52,812 nucleotides of DNA from Clostridia bacterium (lineage in GTDB: Bacteria > Bacillota > Clostridia > Oscillospirales > CAG-272). Below are positions 15,054-25,027 of this stretch, piece by piece. Positions within the stretch are counted from its first letter, which is position 1; every line of letters starts with the position of its first letter. The translations under genes and the position numbers were made by a program. The notes under the pieces were generated by a model. The model did no database searches, was not told where the DNA came from, and saw only the letters and a program-made list of their open reading frames with translations. The stretch covers positions 1 through 52,812 of the forward strand of contig JAFVQL010000036.1 in the NCBI GenBank assembly GCA_017504785.1, read 5' to 3'.

Positions 15054-15923
15054 TCAAAAAGAGAAGAGCACCGCTTTATATCCGTGAGAAAACAAGGTTT
15101 CCTGCATTTTTTGTGAAAGCGCGAAATCCTTTGTCAGCGCAAAAACCGAAGGTCCGCTTCCGCTCATCATGGAAATCTCTGCGCCCATCTCGGAAAGCAG
15201 CATCTTGGCTTTTTTTGCTTTCGGACAGAGGGGAAGCACGGCATCCTCGAAAATATTGTAGCTTGGCGGCATTTCTCCGTTCAAAACAGGCTTTAGCATA
15301 TCTCTGTCCGATAGATCCCTCGGAAGTAGGGTGCTTTTTTCAAAATCATGATACATCTCGTCAAGCTTGCCGTAAGCCTTCGGGGTGGAAACCGCCTCGT
15401 CCGTATTGGCGAGAACGCCGAAATAGCTCTCCTTCACCGGGAGCGCAACCATTTCCTCGCCGCGCCCGTAGCATAGCGCGCGTCCACCGAAAAGGCAGAA
15501 GGGAACGTCGCTTCCGAGAGCTGCCGCAAGCTCGAGGAGCGCCGCTTTGGAAAGCGTACCGGGAAGCATGGCATCGAGAGCGCGAAGCGTGCCCGCCGCA
15601 TCGGCAGATCCGCCGCCGAGTCCCGCCGCCATCGGAATATTCTTTTCAAGAAGGATGGAAAGCTCGGCCGTTTTGCCAGCCGCTTCCAAAAACGCCTTTG
15701 CCGCCCGAACGATCAGATTCTTTTCGTCGGTCGGCAGATCGCACGGCGTAGAGAAGGAAAGCGAGATCTTCGTTTCTTTTGCAGGGGATAGCGAAAAATG
15801 CAAAACGTCACAAAGATCCACGGTCTGCATCACGCTCTCAATATCGTGAAAACCATCGCTTCTCTTGGCGGTCACGTTTAAATACAGATTGATCTTCGCC
15901 TGTGCCATTTCCGTGTGCTTCAT
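15054..15923 (-). CDS. ispE: 4-diphosphocytidyl-2-C-methyl-D-erythritol kinase (GHMP kinase)
   Basis: 289 residues, normal length. It phosphorylates CDP-ME in the MEP pathway to isoprenoid precursors; the window also holds ispH, so the organism uses this pathway. Seen: AKINLYL with K10, the glycine-rich ATP loop PMAAGLGGGSADAA (97-110), D139 in GSDVPFCLFGG, and the C-terminal MSGSGPSVFAL motif of GHMP kinases. Ribosome binding site AAAGGA lies 10 bases before the ATG. It stands alone; 40 bases after its stop comes the tRNA-Lys promoter in the same direction. Confidence 0.96.
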   Translation of the reverse strand: MKHTEMAQAKINLYLNVTAKRSDGFHDIESVMQTVDLCDVLHFSLSPAKETKISLSFSTPCDLPTDEKNLIVRAAKAFLEAAGKTAELSILLEKNIPMAAGLGGGSADAAGTLRALDAMLPGTLSKAALLELAAALGSDVPFCLFGGRALCYGRGEEMVALPVKESYFGVLANTDEAVSTPKAYGKLDEMYHDFEKSTLLPRDLSDRDMLKPVLNGEMPPSYNIFEDAVLPLCPKAKKAKMLLSEMGAEISMMSGSGPSVFALTKDFALSQKMQETLFSHGYKAVLFSF

Positions 15924-16250: not shown

Positions 16251-16279
16251 TTGACAAGCAACGCTTTTTCTGTTACAAT
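16251..16279 (+). promoter_or_regulatory. Promoter of the TerB-N/ATPase/helicase operon
   Basis: TTGACA (16251-16256), 17-base spacer, TACAAT (16274-16279), followed by a GAAGGAGG ribosome binding site at 16296-16303. This is a strong constitutive-looking promoter without a visible operator. Confidence 0.85.
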
Positions 16280-16310: not shown

Positions 16311-17921
16311 ATGGCGTTTGACCGTCGGGATGATTTTTGGGATATCGATAAGCTTGTTCCGAATGCGAAAAAGCCGCATCCGCGCTTCAGAACGGAAAGA
16401 CAAACAAAGGGAGTTGAGATCGAGGGAGACGGCGTATCGGGTGAAAGCAAGCTGACGCTTTCTCTTCGCGGCGGAGAAAGCGAAGAAAGCACGTACGTGC
16501 CGCTTTCCAATCCCTTGATCCGCAAGGTGACCGTGCGCCGCTTTAAGGGCGGATACGATTTTTATGAAAGCTTCCGCAAGGCGGCGCTTCTGTATTACGA
16601 CGTAGTGGCAGAGCCTTCGCCCTTCGTTTCATTTTATTCTTATATGCCGCAGTATTCGCAAATGAGCCGCGAGCAGAAAAACTATTATTTTTATCTGCGC
16701 GCACAGATACGGAGAGGGAATTATTCCTTGAAAACAGACGTTTCCTATCTCTATCTCTACGTATATGAGATATTGAATCTCCCCGAAAAAATTCCCGCAA
16801 AAGAGGGAATCGTGCTTCTTTGCGAGCTTTGGCGGCGCTATCGAAAGCAGATCCCCGCGATCGACCGTTATTTTTCCGTATGGGTGCAGGATTATTGCAT
16901 CGTGCATCGCTTGGATGCGCCGACGGCATTGATAGAGGATTTTATTTACGATATTATTGATGCCGCTTCCTTTAAGGAATTTTATCTCGGCGGTGTTTAC
17001 AGCAAGAACGCCTGCGAGATCACGGCGCTTCTTTCCTGCCTTTCGGATTACGATTGGCGCACGGGGCGTTATGCGGGCGGTGCGGAACGCGATATGTATA
17101 AAAAGCACATTGAGGGGGCAATGCTCCCCGTGCTTCGCTCACTTTGGGAAAAAGGCGCGCTGTTTTTAGAGGATAGCGCGGTAGAGCGGCTTTCGCGCGA
17201 TGCCTTTCCTTGCTCGCTTTGCACGCATAGTGTAAAATGCCGCATCGAAATAGAATATTATCCCCTCGGCCGCTCGGACGGCCTTAGAGACCGCGTGACA
17301 AGTGCCTTGAAATACGTGGAAAATTGCTTGCGCGCGGCACTTTCGGTCAAAAGCCGCCTCGCCGTTAAGCATCTGCATGAGGAGGATAAGCTTTTGATCG
17401 ATGCGTATTTTGCCGAGGCATTCCGCATCGCCAATCAAAAGCGGCGTGAGGCGCAAAGAGCGGCGTATGAAAGCCTATACGATGCGCCGCGGCAGCAGAT
17501 GTCCTTTGCGGGGGCTGAAAGCATAGAGAAAAATTCATGGCAAAATACGTGGCTTCTCGTGGATACGGAAGAGATCGAAACAGTTAAAATCGAGCAACCG
17601 AGCATTGCTTTGGAAAACGAAACGCCGGCGGAAAGTACGAAAGATGCAAAGATCATGATAGAATCGGCGTCTTCGTCGCCTAAAGCGGAAACGGACGAGC
17701 CGCAGCGTGCATTTCTTCGCGCCGCCCTTGTCGGGAACAAGGAAGCCATGCGGCGCGTTGCCGCCGATGCGTTTTTACCTGCTGAAACCTTGGCAGAGCG
17801 CATCAACGAGCTGTTTTTAGAGAAGATCGGAGACGTCGTTTTTGAAATTGCGGACGGCGGTATTTCTTTGATCGAGGATTATAGAGAGGAGGCTTTGGAG
17901 TGGTTACAAGCACAGACGTAA
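16311..17921 (+). CDS. TerB-N / TerB-C domain protein of a helicase-ATPase module
   Basis: 536 residues. After a charged leader of about 100 residues comes a TerB-N-like domain: YSYMPQYSQMSREQKNYYFYLRAQIRRGNY followed by TDVSYLYLYVYEILNL (roughly residues 105-170) match the typical Y-x-P-Q-Y-s-x-M ... D-x-S-Y-x-x-L-Y-x-Y-E pattern. A Cys/His cluster C301-x2-C304-x-H306-x3-C310 may bind zinc. An acidic linker (about 400-460) leads to a TerB-C-like end (ERINELFLEKIGDVVFEI). The name comes from tellurite-resistance loci, but there is no tellurite gene here. It overlaps the following ATPase by 22 bases and is the first gene of the operon, so the three proteins probably act together on nucleic acid. 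Confidence 0.85.
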   Translation: MAFDRRDDFWDIDKLVPNAKKPHPRFRTERQTKGVEIEGDGVSGESKLTLSLRGGESEESTYVPLSNPLIRKVTVRRFKGGYDFYESFRKAALLYYDVVAEPSPFVSFYSYMPQYSQMSREQKNYYFYLRAQIRRGNYSLKTDVSYLYLYVYEILNLPEKIPAKEGIVLLCELWRRYRKQIPAIDRYFSVWVQDYCIVHRLDAPTALIEDFIYDIIDAASFKEFYLGGVYSKNACEITALLSCLSDYDWRTGRYAGGAERDMYKKHIEGAMLPVLRSLWEKGALFLEDSAVERLSRDAFPCSLCTHSVKCRIEIEYYPLGRSDGLRDRVTSALKYVENCLRAALSVKSRLAVKHLHEEDKLLIDAYFAEAFRIANQKRREAQRAAYESLYDAPRQQMSFAGAESIEKNSWQNTWLLVDTEEIETVKIEQPSIALENETPAESTKDAKIMIESASSSPKAETDEPQRAFLRAALVGNKEAMRRVAADAFLPAETLAERINELFLEKIGDVVFEIADGGISLIEDYREEALEWLQAQT

Positions 17922-19267
17922 AAGTCCCGAAGCGAATACTGAACAATCTTATCGCATCGCTTTGTGCGGGCGTTGTGCCCCGCAGCGGTGCGCCCTATAT
18001 AGCAATTGGCCGCAATGACGAGATCGCGGCACTTCTTGAAAATCTACAAACGGTGGCGGAAGGCGGTGCGTTTTGCCGTTTTCTCATCGGTCGCTACGGT
18101 AGCGGAAAGAGCTTTTTGATCCAGCTCATCCGCAGTCACGCCTTGGAGCGCGGCTTTTTGACCGCCGATGCCGATCTTTCTCCTGAACGCAGGCTCACGG
18201 GCGGTAGCGGCGCGGGCCTCGCCACTTACAGAGAGCTGATCGCGCATCTGGCATCCGCCGCTTCGCCCGAAGGCGGAGCATTACCGCTCATTCTTTCCCG
18301 CTATTTCGTAAGCCTTAAAAACGAGATCATTTCGGAGGGCGCGCTTCCTTCGGATGTGGATTTCTCCCGCTTGTTGCAAAAAAAGGTATATAAAATGCTT
18401 TCCGAGCTGGAAGGTGACGTGGGCGGTTTTGATTTTGCGCGTGTTCTTTGCGAATATTACACGGCATCTCTCGAAGAAAACGAGGAAAGAAAAAGCGCGT
18501 GCCTGCGCTTTCTTCGCGGCGAATTTTTAACCAAGACTGAGGCAAAAAATGCGCTCGGCTTCTCCGTAAGCTATATTATCGGGGATGATAACTGGTATGA
18601 CTTTATCAAGCTGTTTGCCGCACTTTCCGTGAAGATCGGCTATAAGGGCTTATTGCTCTTTATCGATGAGTGCGTAAATCTCTATAAGATCCCCAATCGC
18701 ATTTCCCGCGAGGCAAATTACGAAAAGCTGCTTTCGATCTTCAACGATACCTTGCAGGGAAAAGCAAAGAGCATGGGTGTTATCATCGGCGGCGTTCCGC
18801 AGTTTTTGGAGGACACGCGCCGCGGTCTTTTCAGCTATGAGGCTTTGCGCTCTCGCCTTTGCGATTCGCGCTATACCGAGCTTGGATACCGCAATCTTGC
18901 TTCACCTGTGATCCGCCTGCGCCGTCTTTCGGATAACGAGCTTTTCGCTCTTGTCGTCCGTCTTTATAAGCTCTATCAGCAGAAGGAGGGGGAGCGCTCG
19001 CCCGTGCTTTCCACGGAGCAAATCGAGCACTTCATGAGCTGTGCGCTTGGCAAGATCGGCGCAGAGGAAATGATCACGCCGCGCGAGATCATTCGCGATT
19101 TTTTAACGCTACTTAACATCCTGCGCGACAATCCCGAGGCTTCCTTCGAGAAGCTTTTAAAGGGAATGCGCGTCGTGCCGCCCGAAGCACTCGCGCCGCA
19201 AAGCACTTCCGAAAAAGCCGAAGCGCCCGCAAAGAAAACTGTAACAATATTCGATATCGAAATATAA
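17900..19267 (+). CDS. BrxD-like P-loop ATPase (DUF2791-type)
   Basis: 455 residues from a GTG at 17900 with GAGAGGAGG just upstream, inside the end of the TerB-N gene. The order of motifs fits the AAA-like ATP-binding proteins known as BrxD in BREX type 2: IGRNDEI near residue 37, Walker A GRYGSGKSF (64-72), Walker B LLLFIDE (D256, E257), IIGGVPQFLEDTRRGLFSYEALRSRL, and a C-terminal segment with ITPREIIRDFL typical of STAND/AAA proteins of this group. BrxD itself is not well understood. Here it lies between a TerB-N protein and an Lhr-like helicase. The family call is from motif pattern; a profile search would settle it. Confidence 0.85.
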   Translation: MVTSTDVKVPKRILNNLIASLCAGVVPRSGAPYIAIGRNDEIAALLENLQTVAEGGAFCRFLIGRYGSGKSFLIQLIRSHALERGFLTADADLSPERRLTGGSGAGLATYRELIAHLASAASPEGGALPLILSRYFVSLKNEIISEGALPSDVDFSRLLQKKVYKMLSELEGDVGGFDFARVLCEYYTASLEENEERKSACLRFLRGEFLTKTEAKNALGFSVSYIIGDDNWYDFIKLFAALSVKIGYKGLLLFIDECVNLYKIPNRISREANYEKLLSIFNDTLQGKAKSMGVIIGGVPQFLEDTRRGLFSYEALRSRLCDSRYTELGYRNLASPVIRLRRLSDNELFALVVRLYKLYQQKEGERSPVLSTEQIEHFMSCALGKIGAEEMITPREIIRDFLTLLNILRDNPEASFEKLLKGMRVVPPEALAPQSTSEKAEAPAKKTVTIFDIEI

Positions 19268-19282
19268 AACGAGGCAGAAACC

Positions 19283-21520
19283 ATGACGGAAGCAGATAAG
19301 ATATTTGCGAGATTTTCGCCGTTTATAAAAGAATATATCTATTCACACGGTTGGGAGAGCTTTCGCTCTATCCAGCTGGCGGCCGCACACGCAATTTTCG
19401 AAAGTGATGAAAATCTCCTTCTCGCCTCCTCCACCGCCTCGGGAAAAACCGAAGCCGCCTTCTTTCCGATCCTCACGGATCTTTCGGAGCATCCGGTCGA
19501 AGGCTCGGTTGCCGTCTTATATATCGCGCCGCTGAAATCCTTGATCAACGATCAGTTCCTTCGCCTTGGCGAGGTGCTGGATCACTCGGGAATCGCAGTA
19601 TATCATTGGCACGGTGACGTCGGTAATTCTCATAAAACCAATCTTTTGAAAAATCCAAGCGGCATTTTGCAGATCACTCCGGAGTCGCTTGAGTCGCTTT
19701 TGATCCGCCGCCCCAACGATATTCGCCGTCTTTTCGGCGCGCTTCGCTTTATCGTGCTGGATGAGATCCACACGATGATCGGGTCGGATCGCGGCAGTCA
19801 GATCCTTTGTCAGCTTGCGCGCCTTGCGCGCTTTATCGGGTATCATCCGCGTCGCGTGGGACTCAGTGCCACCATAGGAGATACGTCGGTTGCCACGGCA
19901 TGGCTCAGCGTGGGTAGCGGCCGCGGCTGTATTGCGCCTGAGGTGCCTCGCCTTCCTCTGAAGTGGCGGCTCGGCATAGCGCATTTCTACGTGGAAGACC
20001 AAAGAGAAAAGCAAACCCTTCGCCCCACCGAGGAAAACAGCGGCGGTGTGGCTGTTTTAGATCCCGGATATGAATATCTCTACGACTGCGTTTCGGATTC
20101 CAAGGCCCTCGTCTTCTCTAATTCGAGAGAGGAAACCGAATACGTGACCGCAACGCTGCGCCAGATCGCGCATGCGCGCGGCGAAGAGGATATATTCCTC
20201 ATTCATCACGGCAATCTTTCTGCGTCTCTACGCGAGGATGCGGAGCAGAGAATGAAGGACGAGAGCATCACGCGCGCCGTTACCTGCGCCACCGTAACCA
20301 TGGAGCTTGGTATCGATATCGGCCGCCTTGAAAGGGTGGCGCAGGTGGGAGCACCCACCACGGTTTCGGGCTTCCTTCAAAGACTTGGACGCAGCGGCCG
20401 CCGCGGCTCTCCCCCCGAAATGGTAATGGTGTATAGGGAAGAGATGCCCTTGCCGAATGCGCCCTTGCCCCAGCTAATCCCGTGGGATCTTTTGCGTGGA
20501 TTGGCGATCGTGGATCTTTATGCGGAGGAAAGGTTTATAGAGCCGCCGCGCGTAAAGAATATGCCCTTGAGTCTTGCCTTTCATCAAACCTTGAGTCTGC
20601 TTGCATCCGAGGGCGAAAAAACGCCCGCCGAGCTTGCGGCGAGCCTGCTTTCCTTGCCGCCGCTTTCTGCGCTTCCGAAGGATGTGTACAAGGCACTTTT
20701 GGTCTCAATGATCAATACGGAATATCTGGAGCTGACCGAAAGTAAGACCTTGATCATCGGCCTTGCGGGTGAGCGTATCCTAAATAACTATAAGTTTTAT
20801 GCGGTTTTTCGGGACAGCGAGGATTTCACCGTCAGGTGCGGCAGTGAAGAGATCGGAACGATCACAACGCCGCCGCCCGCAGGCGATCGCTTTGCTCTTG
20901 CGGGGCGCGTATGGGAGGTAGAGGATCTGGATACCGCCCGCCGCCTTGTTTTTGTTCACCGCGTGAACGGTAAAATGGAGGTCTCCTGGCCGGGAGACAG
21001 CGGCGAGATCCACACAAAGCTCTTGGTCGCCATGCGCCGCATCCTTCTTTCGGACAAGACCTATCCGTTTTTGAGCGAAAATGCCGCCGTTCGCCTCGCG
21101 GATGCAAGACATCTTGCAAAAAAAGCGGGGCTTGCGAAAAAAAGTCTTGTTTCGCTTGGCGGGCAGAGCTACGTTCTGTTTCCTTGGCTTGGCACAGTGT
21201 CCTTCCGCACCCTTCGTCGCCTTTTAAAGACCTATGCATCACGGCTCGGTATTTCGGATATAGAGTCGGAAGGGTGCTGTTATATCACCTTTAAGGCGCG
21301 CCCCGATGCGGCCGATAATCTTGCGGCGGGTATTGCCGAGATCCTTGATGGCATCGGTGAGGATAAGGAGCAGCTCGTCGGCGCGGCCGAATGCCCAATA
21401 TACGATAAGTATGACGAATTTATACCGCCCGAGCTTCTTCGCCGCGCTTACGCCGCGGATCGCTTGCGGCTGGACGAAATCGCATTGCGATTTAAAAAAA
21501 CAGGGAGGGAAAACGAGTGA
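19283..21520 (+). CDS. Lhr-like DEAD/DEAH-box superfamily 2 helicase (BrxHI-like)
   Basis: 745 residues. Motifs: Q-like SIQLAAAHAI, Walker A ASSTASGKTE (K55), APLKSLINDQ (Ia), DEIH (160-163), GLSATIGD (194-201), VFSNSREETEYV, TMELGIDIGRL and QRLGRSGRRG (through 375). The DEIH box, the winged-helix/beta region after the motor and SAT..GD are like the Lhr core and BREX type 2 helicase BrxHI. No nuclease motif was seen. Full-length Lhr proteins are much longer (about 1500), so this is the short core form. 15 bases after the ATPase gene; its stop overlaps the next start (GTGA). Likely unwinds or remodels DNA or RNA:DNA duplexes. Confidence 0.9.
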   Translation: MTEADKIFARFSPFIKEYIYSHGWESFRSIQLAAAHAIFESDENLLLASSTASGKTEAAFFPILTDLSEHPVEGSVAVLYIAPLKSLINDQFLRLGEVLDHSGIAVYHWHGDVGNSHKTNLLKNPSGILQITPESLESLLIRRPNDIRRLFGALRFIVLDEIHTMIGSDRGSQILCQLARLARFIGYHPRRVGLSATIGDTSVATAWLSVGSGRGCIAPEVPRLPLKWRLGIAHFYVEDQREKQTLRPTEENSGGVAVLDPGYEYLYDCVSDSKALVFSNSREETEYVTATLRQIAHARGEEDIFLIHHGNLSASLREDAEQRMKDESITRAVTCATVTMELGIDIGRLERVAQVGAPTTVSGFLQRLGRSGRRGSPPEMVMVYREEMPLPNAPLPQLIPWDLLRGLAIVDLYAEERFIEPPRVKNMPLSLAFHQTLSLLASEGEKTPAELAASLLSLPPLSALPKDVYKALLVSMINTEYLELTESKTLIIGLAGERILNNYKFYAVFRDSEDFTVRCGSEEIGTITTPPPAGDRFALAGRVWEVEDLDTARRLVFVHRVNGKMEVSWPGDSGEIHTKLLVAMRRILLSDKTYPFLSENAAVRLADARHLAKKAGLAKKSLVSLGGQSYVLFPWLGTVSFRTLRRLLKTYASRLGISDIESEGCCYITFKARPDAADNLAAGIAEILDGIGEDKEQLVGAAECPIYDKYDEFIPPELLRRAYAADRLRLDEIALRFKKTGRENE

Positions 21521-22272
21521 TATACGATCTTCTTGCAGAGTTTTACGATCGGATCAACAGCGATCTGAATTACGATGCATGGGCCGATTTTTTGGAAAAG
21601 ATCTTCGATAAAGAGATGAAGGCGCGCCCCTCTTTAGTCATGGATCTTGGATGCGGCACGGGTAAAATGACGCTCGCGCTTGCCAAAAAGGGCTATGATA
21701 TGACGGGAATCGATTATTCCGTCAATATGCTCGGCAAAGCAAGAGAGGCCGCATACGATGCGGGCCTTTCCGAAAATATCCTTTGGCTTTGCCAGGATAT
21801 ACGGAGCTTTGAGCTCTACGGAACGATGGGCGCGATCGTTTCCTGCCTGGATACGATCAACCATATCACGAAGGAAAAGGAGCTTCTCTCGGTCTTCTCC
21901 TTGGTGCACAATTATCTCGACCCCGATGGGCTTTTTATCTTTGACGTGAACGGAAAAGCGAAGTTTGAAACGCTTTACGCAAATCAGACCTACGTTTTTG
22001 AAGAAGGCGATGATTTTTGCGTATGGGAAAATGAGTATAATGAAAAAAGCAAGCTCTGCCGTTTTTTCATAACCCTGTTCTCGAAGGAGCGTGACGGCAG
22101 ATACGTTCGTTCGGAGGAAACGCAAAGCGAGCGTATGTATACGGTAGATGGCTTGCGCCGTATGCTGGAAGAAACCGGCTTTGAATTTATCGGCGCATAT
22201 TCCGATTTTGATTTCAGTGCGGCAAGTGATATGTCGGAGCGCATTTATATCGCCGCAAGATGCAAAAAGTGA
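21517..22272 (+). CDS. Class I SAM-dependent methyltransferase
   Basis: 251 residues from GTG 21517 with GGGAGGG at 21502-21508; the GTGA overlap with the helicase stop implies coupled translation. Motif I VMDLGCGTGKMTLALAKKGY, motif II TGIDYSVNML and the LDPDGLFIFDVNGKAKFE region are typical of small-molecule/unknown-substrate Rossmann methyltransferases. There is no NPPY/DPPY motif, so it is not an adenine-N6 DNA methyltransferase of the PglX kind. Methyltransferases of this type next to hslO are, as I recall, common in Clostridia, so its link to the helicase module may be only transcriptional. Confidence 0.88.
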   Translation: MIYDLLAEFYDRINSDLNYDAWADFLEKIFDKEMKARPSLVMDLGCGTGKMTLALAKKGYDMTGIDYSVNMLGKAREAAYDAGLSENILWLCQDIRSFELYGTMGAIVSCLDTINHITKEKELLSVFSLVHNYLDPDGLFIFDVNGKAKFETLYANQTYVFEEGDDFCVWENEYNEKSKLCRFFITLFSKERDGRYVRSEETQSERMYTVDGLRRMLEETGFEFIGAYSDFDFSAASDMSERIYIAARCKK

Positions 22273-22283
22273 GGAGAATACTT

Positions 22284-23174
22284 ATGGAAAACAAAAAAAA
22301 TTCAGTGATGCTTCGCGGCATGACCAGAGACGGAAGCGCGCGCGTTCTTGTGATCAATTCCCGCGATATGGTCAATGAAATGATCAAAACGCATAAAACC
22401 GCGCCGACGGCAACCGCCGCGCTCGGCCGCCTTGTGACTGCGGCATCCATGATCGGAAGCATGCTCCCCGAGCCGGGAGATAGCGTGACGGTCGGGTTTA
22501 AGGGCGAAGGCCCTCTTGGGCAGATCTTAGCCGTTGCGGATTATTACGGCTGTGTCAAGGCGTACGTGCAGAATCCCGAGACCGAGCTTCCAAGAAAGAA
22601 AAACGGCGCGCCCGATGTTGGAAATGCGATCGGTGCGGGCACGGTATTCATGGTGCGCGATCTGGCAAGCGGCGAGCCGCAAACAGGAACGGTCGAGATC
22701 GTCAGCGGTGAGGTTGCCGAGGATATTGCAACCTATTTTGCAAAGAGCGAGCAGGTGCCCACGCTTCTTTCGCTCGGTGTATCGCTCGATAAGGACGGCA
22801 GCTGTCTTGCCGCGGGCGGTGTTCTGATCCAGCTTTTGCCTTTTCCGGAGGAAGAGACCGTGGCACTTCTTGAGCGCAATGCGGAAAAGCTTTCTCATAT
22901 CTCGTCACTTTTTGAAAAAGGCCTTTCCAACGAGGAGATCGCCGAGATCGCACTCGAGGATATTCCTTTCGATCCCTTTGATAGCTTGGAGGTTGCTTAC
23001 CGCTGCGATTGCTCGGCAGAGCGCATGCTAAAGAAGATCCGCTCCTTGGCAAGAAGCGAGATCGAGCGCATGCTTTGCGAGCAGGAGGCGGAAGGGAAGC
23101 CGAGAGAGCTGACGGCGGTTTGCCGATTCTGCGGATCCGAATATACCTTTTCTGAAAAAGAACTTCTGAAATGA
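22284..23174 (+). CDS. hslO: Redox-regulated chaperone Hsp33
   Basis: 296 residues, normal length; ATG at 22284 with GAGGAG upstream. Hsp33 is a cytoplasmic holdase that becomes active when its zinc-bound cysteines are oxidised. The core begins with the SARVLVINSRDMV segment; GFKGEGPLGQILAVADYYG and the C-terminal zinc motif CDC (YRCDCS) plus CxxC (CRFCG) are seen. It lies 11 bases after the methyltransferase gene and ends at a strong terminator, closing the operon that starts at 16311. Confidence 0.96.
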   Translation: MENKKNSVMLRGMTRDGSARVLVINSRDMVNEMIKTHKTAPTATAALGRLVTAASMIGSMLPEPGDSVTVGFKGEGPLGQILAVADYYGCVKAYVQNPETELPRKKNGAPDVGNAIGAGTVFMVRDLASGEPQTGTVEIVSGEVAEDIATYFAKSEQVPTLLSLGVSLDKDGSCLAAGGVLIQLLPFPEEETVALLERNAEKLSHISSLFEKGLSNEEIAEIALEDIPFDPFDSLEVAYRCDCSAERMLKKIRSLARSEIERMLCEQEAEGKPRELTAVCRFCGSEYTFSEKELLK

Positions 23175-23743: not shown

Positions 23744-23772
23744 TTGACATTTTCTTTTGGGTATAGTATAAT
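23744..23772 (+). promoter_or_regulatory. Promoter of pfp
   Basis: TTGACA (23744-23749), 17-base spacer, TATAAT (23767-23772): full consensus, fitting a highly expressed glycolytic gene. AAGGAGA ribosome binding site at 23793-23799. Confidence 0.92.
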
Positions 23773-23806: not shown

Positions 23807-25027
23807 ATGAAGGGAAACTTGATCGTTGGCCAGTCCGGCGGCCCCACCGCCGCAATTAACGCTACGCTGAGCGGTGTTATCCGCGGTGCAAAGAAGGCAA
23901 AGGCGGATGGATATATCGAGAAAATTTATGGAATGCGTAACGGCATCGAGGGCTTTTTGGAGGATCGTCTGATTGACCTCGACAGTGCTTTTGCGGATAT
24001 CAAGGATCTTTCCTTGCTGGAAGCAACCCCCTCTGCCGCACTTGGCTCTTGCCGCAAGAAGCTCCCCGCACCCGTACTCGGAGATGCAACCTACGAGAAA
24101 ATTTTTGAGCTTTTCAAAAAGTACGATATCCGTTATTTCTTCTATATCGGCGGAAATGACTCGATGGATACCGTGGCAAAGCTTTCCGTATACGCAAAGC
24201 TTGTAAATTATGAGATCCGCGCGATCGGCGTTCCCAAGACCATTGATAACGACCTTGCGGCAACGGATCATACCCCCGGCTTCGGCTCTGCCGCAAAGTT
24301 TATTGCAACCACCATTTCCGAGATCCTTTGCGATACCGCGGTATATCAGATCCCTGCAGTCACGATCGTTGAGATCATGGGTCGTGATGCCGGTTGGCTT
24401 ACGACGGCGGCGGCACTTCCTTCCTTGAACGGCGCAGGTGTGGATTATATTTATCTTCCCGAGGCACCCTTCTCGGTGGATTCCTTCATTGAGGACGTTA
24501 AGAAGGCGCTTGCGCGCCATCCCAACGTTGTTATTGCGGTTTCCGAGGGCATTCGCGATAAGGACGGCAACTATATCAGTGCTTCCGGTAAGAAGGATAA
24601 CTTCGGTCACGTACAGCTCACGGGCGCAGGCAAGGCGCTTGAGGGCATCGTAAAGGAGAAGATCGGCTGCAAGGTGCGCTCTATCGAGATCAGCCTTCTC
24701 CAGAGATGCGCTTCGCATATCGCTTCGCTTACGGATATCACGGAGTCTGTGCAGACGGGTGAATCCGCTGTAAGATTTGCGCTTCGCGGCAGTACCGGCA
24801 CTATGATCTGCATCAAGCGCTATGAAACTGAGAATTACGAGGTTTACTTCGAGGCGCTGGACGTTCTCTCGATTGCAAACGCGGTGAAGTCCGTTCCCGA
24901 GGAGTACATGAACGAGGAGAAAAACGGTGTAACGCAGGCGTGCATTGATTATCTTGCTCCCTTGGTTCTCGGAGAACTTCCCGTAACCTATAAGAACGGT
25001 ATTCCCGAGCACTTCACCTTTGATTGA
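23807..25027 (+). CDS. pfp: Phosphofructokinase, PPi-dependent type
   Basis: 406 residues. It phosphorylates fructose 6-phosphate; the N-terminal GQSGGPTAAINA and MGRDAGWL (191-198) are the fold's signatures. At the two phosphoryl-donor positions the protein has GGND (115-118; Asp where ATP enzymes have Gly in GGDGS) and PKTIDND (143-149; Lys where ATP enzymes have Gly). Both point to pyrophosphate as donor, which makes the step reversible and saves ATP, as in many Clostridia. Single gene with a full-consensus promoter and its own terminator. Codon use is highly biased, as expected for strong expression. Confidence 0.94.
   Translation: MKGNLIVGQSGGPTAAINATLSGVIRGAKKAKADGYIEKIYGMRNGIEGFLEDRLIDLDSAFADIKDLSLLEATPSAALGSCRKKLPAPVLGDATYEKIFELFKKYDIRYFFYIGGNDSMDTVAKLSVYAKLVNYEIRAIGVPKTIDNDLAATDHTPGFGSAAKFIATTISEILCDTAVYQIPAVTIVEIMGRDAGWLTTAAALPSLNGAGVDYIYLPEAPFSVDSFIEDVKKALARHPNVVIAVSEGIRDKDGNYISASGKKDNFGHVQLTGAGKALEGIVKEKIGCKVRSIEISLLQRCASHIASLTDITESVQTGESAVRFALRGSTGTMICIKRYETENYEVYFEALDVLSIANAVKSVPEEYMNEEKNGVTQACIDYLAPLVLGELPVTYKNGIPEHFTFD

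Follow-up and report, generated by a model that had tools for sequence, protein, structure and literature searches.

Shango is an anti-phage system whose Pseudomonas aeruginosa PA14 version consists of a TerB-like protein, an ATPase and a DEAD/DEAH helicase, according to PMC10250203. Transferred to strain PAO1, this version caused modest 10-100-fold changes in plating with many but not all phages in plaque assays and gave generally strong protection in liquid assays, and an earlier test of Shango in Escherichia coli is cited in the same source (PMC10250203). The P. aeruginosa copy sits in a variable defence hotspot (PMC10250203) and E. coli copies sit in genomic islands (PMC11096173), TerB domains are listed for both Shango and Bunzi (PMC10952713), Shango is among the DefenseFinder systems of rumen genomes (PMC13356809) and its mechanism is entered as unknown in a 2026 review (PMC12926258). 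No literature on the Shango mechanism or on a Shango system core to a genus was evident from titles and abstract openings, a statement that does not extend to absence from print. The present analysis concerns three adjacent genes in a stretch of 52,812 nucleotides (the window) from a Clostridia bacterium of the order Oscillospirales (assembly GCA_017504785.1, contig JAFVQL010000036.1), which, judged by sequence, almost certainly form a complete chromosomal Shango system, sngA-sngB-sngC.

The top PADLOC profile of each of the three proteins was that of its own Sng family (PDLC03958-03960), with bit scores of 145.4 for SngA, 521.9 for SngB and 772.9 for SngC, and the TerB protein, the ATPase and the DEAD/DEAH helicase are adjacent on one strand, as in the Shango layout. 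Other defence genes or mobile elements, whose company is usual for Shango and optional, were absent from the scan of flanking proteins, in which none of 10 proteins (a subset of the window's genes) matched PADLOC at 0.001. An earlier note on this DNA had described a TerB_N/TerB_C protein, a BrxC/BrxD-type ATPase and a BrxHI-related superfamily 2 (SF2) helicase with no BREX (bacteriophage exclusion) core in sight, a family-level reading with which the profile scans agree. It had supposed the ATPase and helicase to lie within the BrxD and BrxHI families, which did not hold, as both are nearer to SngB and SngC; its expectation that the three genes would regularly be adjacent elsewhere was borne out by the survey. 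It had also known of no experimental role for the trio, a view superseded by the identification as Shango, whose PA14 version was assayed in PMC10250203; this described role settles what the note had left open. An anti-phage function of the present copy would be carried over from these published relatives. A search of solved structures returned no relatives of SngA up to an E value of 5, three chance-level matches for SngB (E 0.19-0.59) and, for SngC, many general SF2 helicases among the best 60 of 104 matches. The earlier E. coli report on Shango is from 2022, and the comparative work on ter genes mentioned in the note reportedly dates from 2012.

The match of the ATPase to PF10923 (BrxC/BrxD) and the relationship of the helicase to BrxHI could also be read as a BREX type 2 locus that has degenerated or is incomplete. 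The PADLOC profiles of SngB and SngC (E values in Table 1), however, far outscored those of BrxD (1.4e-43) and BrxHI (2.8e-119), and the NCBIfam model BREX_BrxD reached 150.7 bits on SngB, under its cut-off of 350. PglZ was found in none of 60 genomes of the genus, against two positives among 14 control genomes, and neither PglX nor BrxC gave a PADLOC match among the 10 flanking proteins, the only part searched for them. A BREX remnant was rejected on the missed BrxD cut-off, the better Sng profiles and the absence of PglZ from the genus sample, and the flanking proteins without PADLOC matches also speak against it, making this origin extremely improbable.

Of 60 genomes sampled from the genus, whose members are uncultured gut bacteria, the window's own (77% complete) among them, 45 contained SngC and 45 contained SngA, and the system was present in 17 of the 19 genomes of high quality (completeness of 90% or more, contamination of 5% or less). 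The genes found beside the trio in the window, encoding a methyltransferase and what are presumably IspE and the chaperone Hsp33, were each present in all 19 high-quality genomes, whereas the type I restriction domain HSDR_N, used as a contrast, was found in 13 of the 60 (12 above cut-off) and in four of the 19. Match coordinates placed SngC directly before the methyltransferase in 43 of the 45 carriers, the exceptions being G008, in which the methyltransferase lies on another contig, and G066, a fragment without the methyltransferase. Among the retrieved positive loci, 36 of 37 have SngC directly ahead of the methyltransferase and on one strand with it; negative gaps between the two in these loci partly reflect the choice of the longest frame. 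The distance from ispE to sngA varies from 68 bases to 8.7 kilobases (kb) where both lie on one stretch and strand. The ispE gene is divergent from sngA in the window and in G062, and on the same strand in the other placeable retrieved carrier loci.

In seven species without SngC a single contig holds both ispE and the methyltransferase, which means that the site was assembled there without Shango. In six of these, ispE is next to the methyltransferase, the matched stretches being 23 to 312 bases apart, and in the seventh (G011) 1.9 kb with unidentified frames lies between them. A search of the seven empty sites for Shango relics gave nothing better than E 0.05. The other eight of the 15 SngC-negative genomes had no convincing match to ispE, the methyltransferase or Hsp33 (for the methyltransferase, G068 gave a weak one, 9e-4), so the region is probably unassembled in them.

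Trees of SngA, SngB, SngC, the methyltransferase, Hsp33 and RelA were built from 29 genus genomes; of the 38 with a retrieved SngC, nine were left out for a missing or short marker. Of the 26 splits in the RelA tree, 14 were shared by SngC, 12 by SngB, 14 by SngA, 15 by the methyltransferase and 12 by Hsp33, compared with about 0.2 and at most three when the labels of the Sng trees were shuffled. Distances correlated with those of RelA at 0.77 for SngC, 0.76 for SngB, 0.82 for SngA, 0.86 for the methyltransferase and 0.80 for Hsp33, and the trio thus tracks RelA about as well as its neighbour genes do. In each of the five trees 11 to 14 of the RelA splits are missing, as may result from limited resolution or from a degree of exchange. 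The seven absences, placed on a RelA tree of 43 genomes, require at least four changes against a shuffled mean of 6.7, and six of the seven absent species are nested inside a clade of carriers, which fits losses. By this history Shango would have been gained once, in front of the methyltransferase and Hsp33 genes and prior to the radiation of the genus, and then inherited mainly vertically with about four losses. This vertical history is considered likely, and Shango identity and vertical history in the genus, taken together, very likely.

Elsewhere the system is found on mobile DNA, with SngC relatives in 525 of 72,556 plasmid records at 1e-60 (all below 60% identity), 404 of them typed as conjugative, and with a TerB N-terminal protein, an ATP-binding protein and a DEAD/DEAH helicase annotated in this order in all three records inspected (Paenibacillus, Klebsiella and E. 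coli). SngB had no match at 1e-20 in 50,697 phage records. Together with the variable space between ispE and sngA, these plasmid copies would agree with repeated gains of Shango at an insertion hotspot before the methyltransferase instead of one old gain. In a quick SngC tree of 85 rows, however, from which rows under 600 amino acids were dropped among named contigs, the 42 genus rows (three of them duplicate sequences) formed one clade with an approximate likelihood-ratio support (SH-aLRT) of 100, and within the genus the Sng trees follow RelA far above chance. The guanine plus cytosine fraction of the trio genes (0.51-0.55) also lies close to that of their neighbours (0.47-0.55). Repeated gains are therefore very unlikely: Shango as a kind can be mobile, as its plasmid copies indicate, and the copy in the lineage of the window looks resident.

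BrxC/BrxD-family ATPases and BrxHI-like helicases are parts of DNA-directed defence systems. By this family knowledge, SngB and SngC might assemble on foreign or replicating DNA, with SngA sensing or scaffolding the complex through its TerB domains, and phage replication might be stopped by the complex as it translocates or by a nuclease from outside the trio, the latter being proposed because profile scans detected no nuclease domain in the three Sng proteins. A DNA-acting SngB-SngC pair with SngA as its sensor or scaffold is put forward tentatively, as a mechanism somewhat more doubtful than probable. Neighbouring genes in other lineages weakly suggest that a nuclease may come from outside the trio. 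In L098 (8050-17050), addB and addA, both identified by domain scanning, come after sngC on the same strand, with sngC and addB overlapping by one base; clusters of the L098 AddB and AddA proteins follow sngC in L115, and the AddB cluster in L103, by clustering alone. In L170 (8105-13129), domain scanning identified the gene after sngC as encoding a helicase-like protein with an MTES_1575 nuclease domain, and the post-sngC genes of L078, L172 and L183 cluster with it by clustering alone, the proteins of this group having 1,661-1,790 amino acids.

The fixed site, the near-congruent trees and the presence of the trio in 17 of 19 high-quality genomes against four of 19 for HSDR_N would also be expected if a Shango-derived trio had been converted to a core complex for genome maintenance or stress, co-expressed with the methyltransferase and Hsp33, in which defence is secondary or lost. 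The adjoining addB and addA genes of L098 and the 10 flanking proteins without PADLOC matches point the same way. Against this stand the seven species with an assembled site and no trio, for which at least four changes are required and which indicate that the trio is dispensable, and the SngA tree, about threefold longer than that of RelA (23.25 versus 7.12). The close SngA, SngB and SngC profile matches further suggest that the ancestral function was retained. Such a conversion is considered unlikely, and so is a related arrangement in which Shango would be a core, vertically inherited part of a methyltransferase-Hsp33 operon, forming a resident complex for DNA surveillance or stress that would act in phage defence and also benefit the uninfected cell. 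The reading preferred here is of an inherited Shango defence system: the system is of a known kind, and its evolutionary setting is uncommon.

Several points weigh against this preferred reading. The anti-phage function of the present copy is taken from published relatives and the DNA-sensing mechanism from family knowledge, and the nuclease neighbours occur in few lineages, outside this window, with the SngC proteins of L103 and L115 almost identical. A position beside housekeeping genes is less typical for a defence system, in G008 (L068, G008:C13) the trio is parted from the methyltransferase, and the contrast in distribution is limited to a single other defence family, HSDR_N. Each Sng tree lacks 12 to 14 of the 26 RelA splits, so exchange within the genus may have occurred to some extent; the RelA tree has an uncertain root, and the absent species G005 is on a long branch. 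RelA itself is 28 kb away from the trio in the window and shares a contig with it in a few relatives, which makes it a distant marker that is not fully independent.

Beyond the genus, SngC was found at 1e-100 in 40 of 197 genomes of the order, representing 27 of 111 genera, and in six of 13 family genomes listed, including the window's own. The genes behind sngC in the five other family genomes that carry SngC include none that clusters with either the methyltransferase or Hsp33, which indicates that the methyltransferase site marks the genus among those seen; the next genes scanned in three of these genomes encode a DEAD_2 helicase, a SpoIIE protein and an FtsX protein. Variants of the locus were also observed. 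One (L177, G175:C52:6360-10797) has a tandem pair of sngC genes behind sngA and sngB. A second recurrent Shango site is present in other Clostridia (L085:8335-21325, also L082, L084, L089 and L090), where, in L085, the genes behind Shango include PALP/ACT and thiamine pyrophosphate (TPP) enzymes. In Lachnospiraceae (L113:9298-11263), a SngB-family ATPase (PADLOC SngB 3.7e-153) lies behind a protein of 214 amino acids that weakly matched DUF4391 (24.8 bits, under cut-off), near pth and mfd, and this cluster pair is also present in L107, L109, L110, L111, L112, L114, L116, L117, L119, L120 and L123. Among 10 genomes of the L113 type, SngC matches were partial (about 1e-37, in 1,400-amino-acid frames) in four, about 5e-4 in two and absent in four.

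The reading frames agree with the earlier note in placing three coupled genes in the window (Table 1), with 22 bases of overlap between sngA and sngB and a gap of 15 bases between sngB and sngC, the start codons being ATG, GTG and ATG, respectively. The note had covered the trio up to the end of sngC; the same-strand run continues through the methyltransferase gene and the presumed Hsp33-like gene, so that the trio is the head of a longer run, inferred to be one transcript. The methyltransferase had a partial PADLOC match to the methyltransferase-type profile mad2 (4.4e-17), read as general, and its presence at Shango-free sites makes it a context gene and not a part of Shango. The Hsp33-like protein had no match in the PADLOC scan. 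The single strong promoter proposed in the note corresponds to a site of high match quality before sngA; a promoter-type scan of the region gave seven sites versus 6.3 in shuffles, so only match quality and position favour this promoter-like site. A perfect TTGACA-17-TATAAT is present at 23744-23772, just before a gene at 23807 that presumably encodes a phosphofructokinase-like protein.

Table 1. Positions in the window of the Shango genes, their neighbours and the promoter-like site
Feature	Position	Strand	Evidence or remark
sngA: TerB_N/TerB_C protein, 536 amino acids	16311..17921	+	Pfam TerB_N 5.1e-18, TerB_C 1.2e-7; PADLOC SngA 1.1e-42
sngB: BrxC/BrxD-family ATPase, 455 amino acids	17900..19267	+	PF10923 8.5e-144; PADLOC SngB 3.7e-157
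sngC: BrxHI-related SF2 helicase, 745 amino acids	19283..21520	+	Pfam DEAD + Helicase_C; PADLOC SngC 1e-232
S-adenosylmethionine (SAM)-dependent methyltransferase gene	21517..22272	+	start overlaps sngC stop by 4 bases
Hsp33-like redox chaperone gene, next in same-strand run	22284..23174	+	name presumed from sequence
ispE-like gene, left neighbour of sngA	15054..15923	-	name presumed from sequence
promoter-like site TTGACA-17-TACAAT before sngA	16251..16279	+	11/12 matches; TG ahead of second hexamer

Alignments of 50 SngA, 55 SngB and 58 SngC sequences from the window and the retrieved genomes upheld the intact Walker motifs and helicase motifs that the note had reported. SngB carries the key Walker A (GSGKS) and Walker B (DE) residues, conserved in at least 95% of the 55 sequences, and SngC carries those of helicase motifs I, II, III and VI, conserved in at least 95% of the 58. 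A zinc site proposed for SngA was rejected as a general feature, with C301, C304, H306 and C310 kept in 4, 68, 50 and 48% of the 50 sequences and in 1, 23, 4 and 8 of 26 in a wider set, C304 being the sole common residue of the group. Ratios of non-synonymous to synonymous substitution (dN/dS) between the window and G062 (ispE 0.17, SngB 0.07, SngC 0.08) are saturated, as dS exceeds 1, and were not used as evidence.

The locus offers an example of an innate defence system that seems to have been inherited at a single position by most of the species sampled in a genus, with clear-cut natural absences. The species pairs with and without Shango would allow its cost and possible non-phage roles to be asked about, and the nuclease neighbours of other lineages give a concrete, weak lead to a Shango effector.

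Compared with known systems, BREX type 2 has an ATPase and a helicase homologous to SngB and SngC (as seen in the PF10923, BrxD and BrxHI matches), whereas the trio has a TerB protein where BREX has its core, and SngB falls under the BrxD equivalog cut-off. The helicases of Druantia (DruE) and Dpd (DpdJ) and BrxHI are in one clade with SngC in the helicase tree of PMC12278908, which places HamB of Hachiman with Ski2 helicases. Hachiman serves as a worked-out example of how a helicase can sense the state of DNA and has its own nuclease, HamA, unlike the trio, in which profile scans detected no such domain. The closest system remains Shango (SngABC), which has the same three protein families and gene order; while its other described copies lie in a variable defence hotspot, in genomic islands and on plasmids, the present one occupies a fixed position among housekeeping genes, followed by the methyltransferase and Hsp33 genes, in the majority of the species sampled from the genus.

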